Shown here: positions 25,875 through 32,278 of the stretch, one piece after another | Numbering within the stretch: position 1 is the stretch's first letter | Layout: each line of letters begins with the position of its first letter | Source of the DNA: Leuconostocaceae bacterium ESL0958 | GTDB lineage: Bacteria; Bacillota; Bacilli; Lactobacillales; Lactobacillaceae | Direction: 5' to 3' | DNA length: 64,000 bases | NCBI GenBank assembly: GCA_029433265.1 | Contig: JAQTHT010000001.1 | Coordinates: 62,001-126,000 of the forward strand | Position numbers and translations under genes: made by a program | The notes under the pieces: generated by a model | Database searches by the model: none | What the model saw: the letters and a program-made list of their open reading frames with translations, nothing else | What the model was told of the DNA's origin: nothing

Positions 25875-27353
25875 ATGATGAATTTTTTTCTAAATCAAGG
25901 AATTGGTCATGGTAATTCTGGCGTAGAACACGCGCAATTTTATCGCGCAGCTTGTTTTGACCGTTTAGCGCAACCCTACCGGCTGGTTTATAGTGAGCTG
26001 CTCCCTGCGCTGCAGGATCATCTCCAGGAATGGGGTCAGGATAGTCGGACGGCCATCAATCTCTACGACTATCTTCTAGCGCCCAATCCACGGGCGTATT
26101 TACTGAACGATGACCGTTCTTATCAGCCCTATCAGTACCGCCAAGTGGTTGATTTTCAAGACACGGTGCGCGAGGTCATCGAATCTGCAAACGGGGGCTA
26201 TCAGATCCACCGGGTCAAAGAGAAGTACTTTGACCAAGCACAGGGGATTTACATAGTGGCGGATGCAGCCGTCTCCCTAGCCAATGAACAAACCCAGTTA
26301 TCCTGGACTTATCAGGATCAGGGTGGGGCCCGATTGGCCCAGGATTTTTGGTTAGAAGGTTTTCAAGGGCGGGACTATTACTTCGCCAGTTTTGAGCAAT
26401 TAGTCGCCTTCTTCTTGGATCAGCTAGCCCAAGCCTTTGGGCCGGCCCGTTACTTTGTGGATCGGGGTAATTTTTATGATGAAGCGCTAGTTCAGGCTAA
26501 AAGGCAAGGGCGGCCACTACAATTAATTGAAGTGGTCCATGCTGACCACTTGGTGGCTGATACTGAGCCCAACAGGCCAGTCTGGAATAACTTTTATCAG
26601 TATGCCTTCGACCATCTGGCTGATTATGATGCCATTGTGCTACCCACTGATCGGCAAGCAAAACGACTCGTCGAAAACCTCCGACACCTAGATCAGCCAG
26701 TCGCTGCCAAGGAGCTGAAGAAAATTCAGGCCCTCGCTGTCGGTGGGGTAACAGATTGGGGTAGACCTAAGAAAAGTGTTCACGACCCGATCCGACTGGT
26801 TAGCGCTTCCCGGCTGCATTCCGAAAAAAACGTGGATCAATTAATTGCCCTTTTGGCACGCTTGCATCAAGCAGGGCTAGCAGCTGAGTTGACCATTTAC
26901 GGGCTGGGTGAGCAGGAACAGGCCCTAAAAGAACAGGCAGCGGCGCTTGGGCTGGCGAACCAGGTCCACTTTGCCGGCTTAAGTCAGCAGTTAACCAAGG
27001 ACTTAGCCAAGGCAGATATCTTTTTGTCGGCCTCCTATTCCGAAGGTTTTGGCCTGACTTATTTGGAAGCTCTTTCACAGGGCCTACCTGTGGTCAGCTA
27101 TGCCAATGAATACGGGGCAAAAGCCTTGCTGACAGAAGGAATCAATGCCGCCTTGGTTCCTTTGGACAAGGAGCGACAGTCCCAAGTACCGGCGCTAGCA
27201 GCCGCCGTCCAGCGGGTACTGGCCCACTATCAAACATTGTCTGCCGGCGCCATCGCTAGTGTCCGCCAGTACGATCTTGCCAAACTAGCGCAGCGTTGGC
27301 AGGCTTTTGGAGAGGAACTCAATGGAAGTGCAAGTGTTACAGTCGCTGACTGA
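25875..27353 (+). CDS. GtfA-like glycosyltransferase of the accessory Sec glycosylation system
   Basis: 492 residues. The N-terminus NQGIGHGNSGVEHAQFYRA resembles GtfA of streptococcal accessory Sec loci. The C-terminal half is a GT4 GT-B nucleotide-sugar domain: SASRLHSEKNVDQL at 310-323 (R313, K318) and SEGFGLTYLEAL with the E-x7-E pair E390/E398. GtfA with GtfB adds the first GlcNAc to Ser/Thr of serine-rich surface proteins in the cytoplasm. The next gene is a GtfB-like partner, then Asp1-3-like genes, which supports the assignment. The start has a TAGGAG site. The acceptor is unknown. Confidence 0.82.
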   Translation: MMNFFLNQGIGHGNSGVEHAQFYRAACFDRLAQPYRLVYSELLPALQDHLQEWGQDSRTAINLYDYLLAPNPRAYLLNDDRSYQPYQYRQVVDFQDTVREVIESANGGYQIHRVKEKYFDQAQGIYIVADAAVSLANEQTQLSWTYQDQGGARLAQDFWLEGFQGRDYYFASFEQLVAFFLDQLAQAFGPARYFVDRGNFYDEALVQAKRQGRPLQLIEVVHADHLVADTEPNRPVWNNFYQYAFDHLADYDAIVLPTDRQAKRLVENLRHLDQPVAAKELKKIQALAVGGVTDWGRPKKSVHDPIRLVSASRLHSEKNVDQLIALLARLHQAGLAAELTIYGLGEQEQALKEQAAALGLANQVHFAGLSQQLTKDLAKADIFLSASYSEGFGLTYLEALSQGLPVVSYANEYGAKALLTEGINAALVPLDKERQSQVPALAAAVQRVLAHYQTLSAGAIASVRQYDLAKLAQRWQAFGEELNGSASVTVAD

Positions 27354-28167
27354 CTGGCAAGAACCAGGTCCCGCTTGGCAAATTGCTCGGGTCAAAGCAG
27401 GGTTAGCAGCAGAACTTTGGCTGCTCAATCCCCATGAAGATGGCGCTTACCTAGCGGCACAGGCGGGCTTGGATCCTGCGCGAGTTTATGACTTATATCG
27501 GCAATGTTATGTAAGCGAAGAGGCAAACGGCGCTGGTCGCTGGCTACATGAATTAGGACTGCCCAATGCGGCCCAAATCGTATTGCAACAGGATGGTGGG
27601 CCGGCTATTGTCGATCAAGGCCAAGTCTTGGCGCAAATTCGACTATTTGAATCCGCCAACCAGTTGGTGCAGGCCGTATCTTATCAAAACCGACAGGGCT
27701 TGTTGACGCAGAAGGCCATTTATCTGCGGAATGGCGAACGTTTTGCCCAACAGTTGTTTGCCCGGGGCCAGTTACAAAAAACAACTTTTTATCATCGAGG
27801 ACAGATGGTAGTCCAGGAATATTACCAGGAGCGGCAGCTCTGTTTGCTATTGGATGCTGCTGGGCGGGCCTATCCCAGTCGGCTAGGCTATCTCAATGAG
27901 CTGCTGGCTGCTAACAGGGCCCAGCAAGACCAGCAGTTGGTGACAACGGATGCGACTTTGTTAGCAGGCACACTGCCAGCAAGTACGATCTTAGCCCGCC
28001 CCCAGGGGCTGGCAGATGAACAAGGAACATTGGCAGCGCCTATACAGGCGCTCCTGCAACAACAGCAGCCCGCCCTTGGGGCACTGTGGGTACGAGCGGC
28101 TGACCTGCCAGTGTTGGCTGCAGCCAACAGGGCGAACCGACCGCCCGTTGCCTTGTTAAAGGAATAA
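27322..28167 (+). CDS. GtfB-like glycosyltransferase-stabilising protein, short form
   Basis: 281 residues from the ATG at 27322, which has GAGAGGA upstream and lies inside the end of the gtfA-like gene (32-base overlap). A TTG at 27307 is in frame but has no ribosome site. The central part (IRLFESANQLVQAVSYQNRQ, then QKAIYLRNGERFAQQLFARG) aligns by eye with the GtfB segment that describes a domain of repeated strands, and GtfB is the expected partner of GtfA as substrate-recognition subunit. Streptococcal GtfB is about 440 residues, so this one is much shorter. The call rests on partial similarity and position. Confidence 0.6.
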   Translation: MEVQVLQSLTDWQEPGPAWQIARVKAGLAAELWLLNPHEDGAYLAAQAGLDPARVYDLYRQCYVSEEANGAGRWLHELGLPNAAQIVLQQDGGPAIVDQGQVLAQIRLFESANQLVQAVSYQNRQGLLTQKAIYLRNGERFAQQLFARGQLQKTTFYHRGQMVVQEYYQERQLCLLLDAAGRAYPSRLGYLNELLAANRAQQDQQLVTTDATLLAGTLPASTILARPQGLADEQGTLAAPIQALLQQQQPALGALWVRAADLPVLAAANRANRPPVALLKE

Positions 28168-28180
28168 GAAAGGAAGCATT

Positions 28181-29653
28181 ATGCCTGAGCAAATTGTCAG
28201 GGATCGCATTGACTACTTACCAATATGGCCCGACCATTTTCACCAGGGATTGCCGGCGCAGCTGATTCAAACAGCCAACATTTTACAAGCGGCCTTTCCC
28301 AAGGCCCGGCTGCTGCTGGCCAATTATCAGCCAAAACTGCGGACACTATTAGCCGAAGCCGGTTTGGGTACTTTGTCCTATTGGACGGCTTTTGATCAAC
28401 TCCAGCAGGTCAGCGAATTTGACCAGCAGCCACTGGCGCTGGCGGATTTCACCTGGCCGGCAGGGGCTCGTTTCGTTCGTCTTTATGACCGGGTGACTGT
28501 TTTAGTGGGGCAAAGGCACTATGCAACGGTCTTCTTTCACTATCCAAAAGCCAGTGTGATTGATCGAATCAATCTGTTAGACCGGGGACAGATTGCACAA
28601 CAGTTGACCATCGACGACCGGGGCTTTGTTTCCCGGGTGTTAACCTTTGAAGCGGGCGAAATTCGCCGAGCTGATTACCTGAACCCGGCCGGGGCCGTGG
28701 TGATGAGTGAAGATTATCAAACGGGGGCCGTCCGTGCACAACTACCAGATGGTCACGTGCAGGACTATGCTAATTTGGCTGCCCTGCAAAGTGTTTTGAT
28801 GAAAGACTACTTGCAGCAGGCAACAGCGCCCCTAGTGACTGATTATTCACTCCAACACCAAGATTGGCTGGCGCAAAGCCAGCGGACTGCGCCGGTTCAC
28901 TATCTGGTCAGTGAGCGGGCTGCATTCACTGATTTGTCCGCTTTTGCAACCCTGGCAGCCACGAAATCGATCATTAGTCCCTATTACTTGACGGGGCCAG
29001 CAGGCTTGTTGCCGGCTCGGTTAACTGATCGCTTACAAATGGCGGGCATTGAACTGGCCACCATTGCCAATCAAGCCGTTAGTCAAAACACAGCGCAAGC
29101 ACAGCCAAAGGAACACTGCATTATCTATGTGAACTTGCAGCATTTGCAGGGGCCGGATCGCCAGGCATTACTGGATAGTCTACTGGCGTTGGCCAATGAG
29201 TACGAGCGCTTTGTCTTTATTCTGGAAGCAGGGGCGCAACTGCCTGTGGCACAGCAGTATCTACAAGAGCAGTTGGCCCACTTGACGGCCCTGGCGCAGG
29301 CAGCCAGTTCGCTGGTAGATCGCTTTGTTTGGGCAACTGCCAACGATGAAGAGAGTCGTCAGGCTTTCTTACAGACAGCAACGGCCGTCGTCGACTGGCA
29401 GCCGTTACCGGATCTATCACTAGCTTCTTCGGCACTCGCACTAGGCTTGGGCACATTGACCCGGCGGCGCACGGTTTATCAGTATGACGAGGCCCTTGTT
29501 TGTGCGGACTTGACGCAACTGCGGGCGGCAATAATTCGATTGCTGGATCCAAACAATCGGGAAAAGGGCCAGCAATTAGCCTTAGAGCAACGGGTTGCCT
29601 TCGACCAAAGTCACTGTGCGGCCCATTACCGTCAACTGATTGGACAACAGTAA
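28181..29653 (+). CDS. Asp1-like accessory Sec system protein
   Basis: 490 residues, close to the usual Asp1 length. The N-terminus (DYLPIWPDHFH near 11) and the segment QLTIDDRGFVSRVLTFEAGE followed by DYLNPAGAVVMSEDY fit Asp1, a catalytically inactive GT-B-like protein that forms a complex with Asp2 and Asp3 in accessory Sec export. A GT-B-like C-terminal half is suggested by alternating strands and helices (IIYVNLQHL to FVFILEAG). The ribosome site AAAGGAAG precedes the ATG. Annotation is by similarity recalled for the family plus gene order. Confidence 0.72.
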   Translation: MPEQIVRDRIDYLPIWPDHFHQGLPAQLIQTANILQAAFPKARLLLANYQPKLRTLLAEAGLGTLSYWTAFDQLQQVSEFDQQPLALADFTWPAGARFVRLYDRVTVLVGQRHYATVFFHYPKASVIDRINLLDRGQIAQQLTIDDRGFVSRVLTFEAGEIRRADYLNPAGAVVMSEDYQTGAVRAQLPDGHVQDYANLAALQSVLMKDYLQQATAPLVTDYSLQHQDWLAQSQRTAPVHYLVSERAAFTDLSAFATLAATKSIISPYYLTGPAGLLPARLTDRLQMAGIELATIANQAVSQNTAQAQPKEHCIIYVNLQHLQGPDRQALLDSLLALANEYERFVFILEAGAQLPVAQQYLQEQLAHLTALAQAASSLVDRFVWATANDEESRQAFLQTATAVVDWQPLPDLSLASSALALGLGTLTRRRTVYQYDEALVCADLTQLRAAIIRLLDPNNREKGQQLALEQRVAFDQSHCAAHYRQLIGQQ

Positions 29654-29678
29654 GGAAACATCATAAAGGATATTTTTC

Positions 29679-31217
29679 ATGCAGCCATTATCAATTTTAC
29701 AAATCGGTCGGCAGGACTGGACGGAGGCGTTAGCCCAGGCTGACTTGGATTGGCACTTTGTGCCCCTGGACCAGTTAACGGTTTTTTTGGCCCAGCAGGA
29801 AAAGTTGACTGCCTTGCCTTATGATTACGTCTTGCTGTCGGATGAAAAATTGAACAGTAGTACGTTGGCTCGGCAAATTTCACGCTGGCCTGCCCAACGG
29901 GTGCTCTACGTGGCCGGCTTGGATGCCTACAATGAGGGACTGCGCCAGGCACTAGTGGCCCGCCAGGCCCTGTTCTTAGGGCCCGTGACGCCATCCGAAT
30001 TGTTGGGCCGACTGCAGCGGGACTTTTTCCCTGGTCAAATTGCTTTCCCGACCCGCTTTTCAGAAAGCCAATTCGTGCCCATGAATCGCTATGACTATCA
30101 TTTTCAGCGACTGGGCCGCTTTCAGGCAACCTTCTCGGGTTCCTTTGGCCCGGATTTTCAGCAAATTGGCACGTTGAAAACTTATCCAACTGACTTTGAG
30201 GCCGGTCAAAGCAATGAGATTTACCTGGACTACGAGACGACCGGCACGGTCCAGGTGGCGCTGTCCTTTATTTTTTATCAAAACGGGCGCCTCCAGCAAA
30301 TGAAGACGCTGACTCAACCATCAGTAGAGACCCTGCCCATCGTGACGGCCCCAACCCAATATCAGGACTACCAAATTCTGCTGCTGGCCAAAGGGGCAGG
30401 GCAGTTGACCTTACGGAATTTGCACCAGCGGAAGAGCCGCCATGGGCTGGGGCAGATTGTCCTCGGCGGCCGCCGGCAGTTAAGTACTGATGGCCAGGAA
30501 TTACTGTCCTACTTTAATCCTGGTACCAAGCGGGGACCGCTGGTGGTGCTCTTTGGCGGCACACGCTTACACGTGGAAGGTTTTGACTACCTGGACCTAT
30601 TGGACGCATTGGGCTACCCACGCCTGGTCTTGACGGATACGAGAGCCCAGGGGGGCGCCTTTCTAGTGGGATCGGCTCCCTTTGAAGCATTGGTCAAGCA
30701 AGAGATTGAACGGGCCCAACGGCTGGCTGCTGTTCAAAGCGCCCGGACGCTTTTTGTTGGTCACGACATGGGGGCGTATCCGGCCCTTTACTATGCTGGC
30801 CTGTTAGCCGGTAGCCAGGTAATAGTGGCCAAGCCGATCCTGAATATTGGTAGTTTTACCGCCAACGGGGATTTTGCCCATCAGGGCGTCAACCACGATT
30901 GGCCCTTGGATGTCCGGGCGGTATGGACTGGTCGGCTGAACGCGGCAGATACGGCTAGCTTGGATGCCAAACTCTGGACTGCACTCGACGGGCTGAGCCA
31001 TGCTAGTGCCCAGGTCAATCTATGGACCATGACCAAGGACGAATACGACGGGCAGGCTGTGCCCGCCCTGTCCCGTTACTTGACGGCCCATGGCGTGTCG
31101 CTTGTTCAGGAAGAACAGTATGGCCAGCATGAAGACCATGCAGCTGAAATGACGGATTATCTGCGCCGGACCATTGAACAGCGAGCGCAGGAGATGAAAA
31201 GAGGAGGGCAGCGTTAA
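29679..31217 (+). CDS. Asp2-like accessory Sec protein with Asp in the nucleophile elbow
   Basis: 512 residues, the usual Asp2 length. Order of parts: a flavodoxin-like N-terminal region (1-115), a beta-sandwich (about 145-265) and an alpha/beta-hydrolase domain (about 285-505). Asp2 of streptococci O-acetylates GlcNAc on the exported glycoprotein with a Ser-Glu-His triad. Here the elbow is GHDMG at 361-365, so Asp363 replaces the Ser. Acidic residues D454/E455/D457 and H484 lie where the other triad members are expected. The stop overlaps the next ATG (TAATG). Either the chemistry is changed or the protein is structural only. Confidence 0.75.
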   Translation: MQPLSILQIGRQDWTEALAQADLDWHFVPLDQLTVFLAQQEKLTALPYDYVLLSDEKLNSSTLARQISRWPAQRVLYVAGLDAYNEGLRQALVARQALFLGPVTPSELLGRLQRDFFPGQIAFPTRFSESQFVPMNRYDYHFQRLGRFQATFSGSFGPDFQQIGTLKTYPTDFEAGQSNEIYLDYETTGTVQVALSFIFYQNGRLQQMKTLTQPSVETLPIVTAPTQYQDYQILLLAKGAGQLTLRNLHQRKSRHGLGQIVLGGRRQLSTDGQELLSYFNPGTKRGPLVVLFGGTRLHVEGFDYLDLLDALGYPRLVLTDTRAQGGAFLVGSAPFEALVKQEIERAQRLAAVQSARTLFVGHDMGAYPALYYAGLLAGSQVIVAKPILNIGSFTANGDFAHQGVNHDWPLDVRAVWTGRLNAADTASLDAKLWTALDGLSHASAQVNLWTMTKDEYDGQAVPALSRYLTAHGVSLVQEEQYGQHEDHAAEMTDYLRRTIEQRAQEMKRGGQR

Positions 31218-32278
31218 TGCGTTATCAGATTTACTGGCAGCCGCAAACGAAACTGCATGAATTGCAGGGTGCCCAGGTTGACTTTCAAGCAGTCGACGCT
31301 GTCTACTATCACAATGATTTCCTACCTTCTGGTCAAGTCATTGCGACTTGGACGGACAAGCGGAACTATTTTTTTGATAAGGCGCTCGCTGACCTCCCCC
31401 ATCTTCGACCGGGGCAGAGTTACCGGAGTCAGCTGGACGTAGACCAAGGCGATAGTATGCGCGCCTATCTGTCCTTTTCTTTTTTTGATAAAGAAAACCA
31501 GCTCGTGGACCAGTGCTATCAAAATACGGACAGCTTTGCACTGACGGTTCCCAGTCACTATGACCACTACCGCATTGAACTACTATCGGCAGGACGGGGT
31601 TCGTTTACTTTTCATCAGCTGACATTGACGGAAGAAAACGAGGGCTTCTTGCTGGCAGGGGACCAGCAGCTGACCGAAAATCTAGGGGCCTACCTCGATC
31701 GGACTTATCAGCGGTCAACTCGGACGTTAACGGTGATTTTTGCGGAACCCAGGTTGAAGCAGTTGGATTATCCGCGAACTTTTGTGCCAGATCAGCAGCA
31801 GGCTGTCCTTTACTGCAGTACGGATTTAGTTCACTGTCGAGCTTATCAAACAGATGCTTTGCAGACCTATATCAGTCAGGTAAAAAAGGAGGTCAAAGCA
31901 AAGGCGCTACGTTTTGTTGGTTATGGCTTTCTCTCTGCCGCAACGGCCCTTTATTATCAGGAGCTGTTTGAAGGGGCGACGGTTTGTTTGCCGGCACCAG
32001 ACTTGTTGGCCATGCCGGCTAGCTACGAGCACTTGCCGGGCGATTTGCAGACCCATTTCAAGCAGCAAGCGGCATTACTAGCCGCCGCCGACTGGCCACA
32101 AGTTCAAATCATCAAGGATCATTCGTTGGCAGCCAACCCGAGTCCGGTTGGACTTACCCATCCCAATCAGGCCCTGCTCCGGCACTTACCAGCGCCAGAA
32201 CAGCCCAACAGTCTTCAAAAAAGAAAAAGGGCACGGCCGGGACAAAAACAGCGCCTCCGTGATTTTTTCAAGAAATAG
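31217..32278 (+). CDS. Asp3-like accessory Sec protein with a degenerate hydrolase-like C-terminal part
   Basis: 353 residues. Residues 1-140 match Asp3: YQIYWQPQ at 3-10, LPSGQVIATWTD around 36-47, RPGQSYRSQLDV and a final strand SFTFHQLTLTEE. Asp3 binds Asp1 and Asp2. After residue 150 there is extra sequence. FVGYGFLSAATALYYQELFE (from 233) resembles the Asp2 elbow region FVGHDMGAYPALYYAGLLAG, but without a usable nucleophile. The C-terminus is strongly basic (QKRKRARPGQKQRLRDFFKK). The start overlaps the asp2-like stop, and a terminator follows, closing the five-gene block. Confidence 0.68.
   Translation: MRYQIYWQPQTKLHELQGAQVDFQAVDAVYYHNDFLPSGQVIATWTDKRNYFFDKALADLPHLRPGQSYRSQLDVDQGDSMRAYLSFSFFDKENQLVDQCYQNTDSFALTVPSHYDHYRIELLSAGRGSFTFHQLTLTEENEGFLLAGDQQLTENLGAYLDRTYQRSTRTLTVIFAEPRLKQLDYPRTFVPDQQQAVLYCSTDLVHCRAYQTDALQTYISQVKKEVKAKALRFVGYGFLSAATALYYQELFEGATVCLPAPDLLAMPASYEHLPGDLQTHFKQQAALLAAADWPQVQIIKDHSLAANPSPVGLTHPNQALLRHLPAPEQPNSLQKRKRARPGQKQRLRDFFKK

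Follow-up and report, generated by a model that had tools for sequence, protein, structure and literature searches.

A naturally Ser-less Asp2 in an asp operon of a Fructobacillus genome, probably a maintained pseudoenzyme

The closest described relatives of the protein considered here are the streptococcal Asp2/Gap2 proteins (S. gordonii; solved structures 6lnw_B and 6oyc_B), which act both as GlcNAc O-acetyltransferases and as export factors. In S. gordonii triad mutants the O-acetylation of GlcNAc is lost and GspB export is normal, the S362A mutants still export, and the general Sec system can export the non-acetylated glycoform (PMC5578698). Seepersaud et al. proposed that the acetylated glycan may partly explain why a separate SecA2/SecY2 exists. 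Asp2 has been described as confined to SRR adhesin-aSec operons and its catalytic triad as uniformly conserved (PMC5578698; PMC7948813). Among open-access papers, no literature on Fructobacillus asp genes was found.

We analysed a stretch of 64,000 nt of the Leuconostocaceae bacterium ESL0958 genome (hereafter, the window), in which the asp2 reading frame has no internal stop. The encoded protein matched TIGR03712 (acc_sec_asp2) with 233.8 bits against a cut-off of 210.75, over residues 6-494, and Pfam Asp2 (PF16929) with 221.2 bits against a cut-off of 28, over residues 5-495. The curated cut-off is thus passed over the full length, with asp1 and asp3 adjoining, and an earlier note on this DNA, which had attributed full Asp2 length and domain order to the protein, was right on this point. 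A second match of the Asp2 search, at contig positions 93403-94002, is not a further asp2, as it falls inside asp3. The features of the locus are collected in Table 1.

Table 1. Genes of the operon and residues of Asp2, in coordinates of the window
Feature	Coordinates	Strand	Basis and remarks
gtfA-like GT4 glycosyltransferase	25875..27353	+	Presumed to open the operon; EX7E motif in the sequence; TIGR02918 161.5 bits, below cut-off 574.6
Short gtfB-like chaperone, 286 aa	27307..28167	+	TIGR02919 29.8 bits, model positions 38-196 of 438
asp1	28181..29653	+	Pfam Asp1 above cut-off; TIGR03713 120.8 bits (cut-off 136.1)
asp2	29679..31217	+	512 aa; full-length accessory Sec Asp2 without Ser nucleophile; TIGR03712 above cut-off
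D303 codon	30585..30587	+	EGFD in the window; E303 in all Ser-type Asp2s; loop after strand 288-292
Nucleophile elbow G361-H-D-M-G365	30759..30773	+	D363 codon GAC at 30765-30767; translation, alignment, AlphaFold model
D454, kept catalytic-acid position	31038..31040	+	Alignment
H484, kept catalytic-His position	31128..31130	+	Alignment
asp3	31217..32278	+	TIGR03711 above cut-off; C-terminal Asp2-hydrolase-like domain without nucleophile elbow

Translation confirmed the GHDMG elbow reported earlier, coded GGT CAC GAC ATG GGG, at the place where Asp2 O-acetyltransferases carry the Ser nucleophile of a GxSxG motif. In a phmmer comparison with solved structures, D363 was aligned on the catalytic Ser of both 6oyc_B (Gap2) and 6lnw_B (Asp2), and in the AlphaFold model (mean pLDDT 74.8, elbow-flanking blocks 82-90) it lies at the turn between a strand (357-362) and a helix (363-375), that is, at the nucleophile elbow; pocket detail in this model is limited by the loops 295-301, 323-327 and 397-420, with pLDDT <50. 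The best structural match of the model was 6oyc_B, followed by Ser hydrolases, esterases and a meningococcal capsule O-acetyltransferase. The earlier note had allowed for a Ser elsewhere that serves the elbow, or for another motif as the true nucleophile segment. We found no displaced Ser of this kind in a motif scan of the whole 512-aa protein, in which GxSxG is absent and the sole loose match is GLSHA at 438, and it is D363 that aligns on the Ser elbow.

All the 12 congeners have GYSMG, with TAY-TCN as elbow codons, where the window has GGT CAC GAC in frame and without indel; hence S363D is private to this species within the genus. By single-base steps, a TCN codon can reach GAY only via Ala or Tyr, and for this reason the Ser was probably lost before the Asp arrived.

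The other two positions of the triad are in place by alignment, as the earlier note had surmised. Column 454 is D in 171 and E in 23 of 195 Asp2s, and D454 and H484 provide the acid and the His expected of an Asp2 O-acetyltransferase. The triad given in that note for streptococci (Ser362, Glu452, His482) was right, and so was the matching of Asp363, D454 and His484 to it; its alternative acid, E455, has to be dropped, since column 455 is variable, which leaves D454 as the acid partner in the window.

The 195 distinct Asp2 ORFs were obtained from 399 genomes of the family (116 with a match), plus samples of the order and of the class; the congeners were identified by an alignment scan, a single-protein scan of the genome contigs having given no relatives. 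The nucleophile column holds Ser in 189 sequences, Gly in 3 (L087, L089 and L090), Ala in 2 (L088 and L147) and Asp in the window only, the Gly and Ala types belonging to related Lactobacillaceae; Ser and E303 are present without exception in the 68 Asp2s contributed by the samples of order and class. A row with Pro in this column (L084|5823) was dropped, being an Asp3 rather than an Asp2. On these sequences, the published uniform conservation of the triad is nearly but not wholly right, with the window Asp2 as an exception.

Position 303 was the sole conserved column that tracked the nucleophile perfectly: it is Glu in 189/189 Ser-type Asp2s and in none of the 6 non-Ser ones, of which five, including the window, have E303D and one has E303S. 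This feature was found in the present analysis and is not a published one; E303 thereby becomes a new candidate for a residue of the active site in all Ser-type Asp2s. G294 is altered in 5/6 non-Ser Asp2s, the window retaining both G294 and R296. On an Asp2 tree built without the nucleophile and E303 columns, the nucleophile changed at least 5 times, and E303 likewise. A sign test on the coupling of S363 and E303 gave p 0.125, with only 4-5 independent pairs, a number at which significance is out of reach, and the Fisher value takes no account of kinship; our argument for the coupling is based on the otherwise invariant E303 and not on test statistics. As for L147 (G032:C15), its Asp2 has GSAMG and Ser at 303, although the accessory Sec locus around it is of the canonical kind and includes genes for SecA and SecY.

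For the Gly-type sisters L087 and L089, dN/dS was 0.092 for the full sequence (hydrolase domain, 0.081), inside the range of Ser-type pairs (0.03-0.15), so that this pair is under purifying selection; the estimate was made on the Gly-type pair, as no sequence in the set is close to the window lineage, for which synonymous sites would be saturated. For the window we considered the ratio between the divergence of its Asp2 from those of the congeners and the congeners' mutual divergence. This ratio was 1.25, against 1.11-1.41 for the adjacent genes, and it was equal over the three Asp2 domains (1.24-1.26), hence no acceleration specific to the hydrolase domain was found by this measure. In the Asp2 tree, the window has the longest terminal branch of the genus (0.78).

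The gene order gtfA, short gtfB, asp1, asp2, asp3 is the same in all Fructobacillus, in Convivina and in a further genus (g39), and the operon is flanked by pta and a TauE gene in the window as well as in F. durionis. The short GtfB-like form is common to the relatives. The model of asp3 aligns lengthwise to the solved Gap3 (6oyc_C), so that the idea of an Asp3 with a novel fused domain was abandoned; the window copy is shorter (353 aa, vs at least 414 aa in congeners) and reads GYGFLSA vs GYGPISS or similar in most relatives. The G+C fraction of the window is 0.518, higher than the 0.427-0.505 around the asp loci of the 11 Fructobacillus congeners compared.

No SecA2 or SecY2 above the cut-offs was found in 12 of the 13 Fructobacillus genomes, including that of the window, each of which has one full-length SecA and one SecY; in the window genome both score as housekeeping types and SecA adjoins prfB. 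A canonical accessory Sec system, with SecA2 and SecY2 in the genome, thus appears to be lacking here; the assembly is a draft (25 contigs, 98.97% complete) and a copy may be missing in one strain, the genus-wide pattern being independent of this. The exception, G010, has an additional accessory Sec cluster on a separate contig, with GLSMG in its Asp2. Asp loci without secA2/secY2 were seen in the window (25875-32278) and at L026-L038 and L067-L092: in Fructobacillus, Convivina and one further genus they are gtfA-gtfB-asp1-asp2-asp3 operons, and in the sister genus g16, where each of the 19 species has such an Asp2, asp1-2-3 occur without nearby secA2/secY2 and mostly without recognised gtfA/B. 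The nucleophile was lost in 5/38 Asp2s of the SecA2/SecY2-free operon type vs 1/157 of the others, counts that ignore kinship; for them, neighbouring SecA and SecY genes were sought over some 7-10 kb around the loci of the family set, and the loci from the samples of order and class were all taken as canonical unchecked. The window operon is an exception to the confinement of Asp2 to SRR adhesin-aSec operons.

The genome, of 1.3 Mb, encodes ten proteins with a KxYKxGKxW signal (contigs C3, C4, C5, C11, C16, C20, C22 and C23 of G000; L018-L025, L187-L196), three of them with open frames of >3,000 aa, the longest of 7,868. The largest of the KxYKxGKxW proteins are rich in Ala, Asp, Gln and Asn, not in Ser, some of them having Ser/Thr-rich stretches with at most 40 such residues per 100.

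The earlier note had considered a switch to the chemistry of epoxide hydrolases. With such a switch D363 would be a working nucleophile, as also in haloalkane dehalogenases, and H484 with D454 would activate water. The GHDxG letters do resemble the epoxide hydrolase elbow, D363 is at the strand-helix turn, and Asp, His and acid are all present by alignment. However, neither the HGxP oxyanion motif nor the two lid Tyr are there (a motif scan found no HGxP in the protein, and no Tyr occurs between residues 373 and 455, where the lid would sit), the list of the best 50 structural matches consists of Gap2/Asp2 together with Ser hydrolases, other esterases and one O-acetyltransferase of capsule, and the pathway has no evident epoxide or halide substrate. 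Moreover, E303D also accompanies the Gly and Ala forms, and these cannot use an Asp nucleophile. On this evidence we do not follow the note and regard the switch to an Asp-based reaction as quite unlikely. Catalysis without a covalent intermediate, with the D454-H484 dyad (aided by D363/D303) as a general base, e.g. in a glycan esterase, would account for the presence of D454 and H484 in 6/6 non-Ser Asp2s, in which the Ser was lost independently about five times. Against it, the loss of the invariant E303, and of G294 in 5/6 (not in the window), points to a dismantled acyl-transfer site, and we know of no precedent in the Asp2 family for general-base catalysis without Ser; we consider this unlikely.

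Two further explanations were considered. That the gene is decaying, with Asp2 function on its way out in this lineage, agrees with the long terminal branch and yet is very unlikely, the frame being intact, operon and synteny conserved, divergence not in excess of the flanking genes or concentrated in the hydrolase domain, and the Gly-type relatives under strong purifying selection. That the elbow codons stem from a fault in assembly or sequencing is conceivable in a single genome known from a 25-contig draft, but it is hardly credible, as the codon substitutions are clean and without indel, they go together with E303D, which lies 180 bases upstream, and independent non-Ser relatives match the pattern.

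We consider it probable that the window Asp2 is a maintained pseudoenzyme, which would have lost acetyl transfer and kept a scaffold and export role. The non-catalytic alternative of the earlier note is supported by the independent S->G and S->A losses, the coupled loss of E303, the retained D454 and H484, purifying selection where measurable, and the intact export of the published S362A mutant; the gene is intact, its operon conserved, and its divergence no faster than that of the neighbours. Gly and Ala cannot serve as nucleophiles, and since these forms show the E303D change as well, the common event is the loss of the acyl-transfer site. On the other side, an Asp at the elbow can act as nucleophile in other alpha/beta-hydrolases, and the perfect retention of D454 and H484 is not obviously needed by a pure scaffold.

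As a pseudoenzyme, the window Asp2 would no longer O-acetylate GlcNAc on the exported glycoprotein and would serve as a glycan-contacting, scaffolding subunit of the Asp1-Asp2-Asp3 complex, D363 probably occupying the old nucleophile site, where it would pair with H484 and not attack any substrate. The complex would receive the preprotein glycosylated by GtfA/GtfB and pass it to the ordinary SecA/SecYEG, a hand-over that we infer because the genome has no recognisable SecA2/SecY2. We suggest, tentatively and with less than even confidence, that in Fructobacillus, Convivina and neighbour genera Asp1-3 serve the housekeeping Sec, and that an Asp2 so freed has repeatedly turned into a non-catalytic glycan reader through a coordinated change of S363 and E303. 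Natural non-catalytic Asp2s would allow export to be told apart from acetylation with no need for mutants, and orphan asp operons, with Asp proteins but no such translocon and with the Ser lost more often, bear on why a separate SecA2/SecY2 exists.

With epoxide hydrolases and haloalkane dehalogenases the window protein shares a GHDxG-like elbow and the alpha/beta-hydrolase core, but it lacks their HGxP and lid Tyr, they are not among its best fold matches, and its nearest relatives are Ser enzymes. Streptococcal Asp2/Gap2 is like it in length, domain order, D454 and H484, and the streptococcal loci likewise have Asp1 and Asp3 as neighbours and GtfA/GtfB relatives in the operon, whereas the window protein has Asp for Ser and Asp for E303, and no SecA2/SecY2 was found in its locus or genome; the window protein most likely corresponds to the triad-mutant state of S. 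gordonii made permanent. The non-Ser Asp2s of other Lactobacillaceae (L087-L090, L147) are like it in the lost nucleophile, the changed E303 and the kept D454 and H484, but they have Gly or Ala together with a changed G294, where the window has Asp and keeps G294 and R296.
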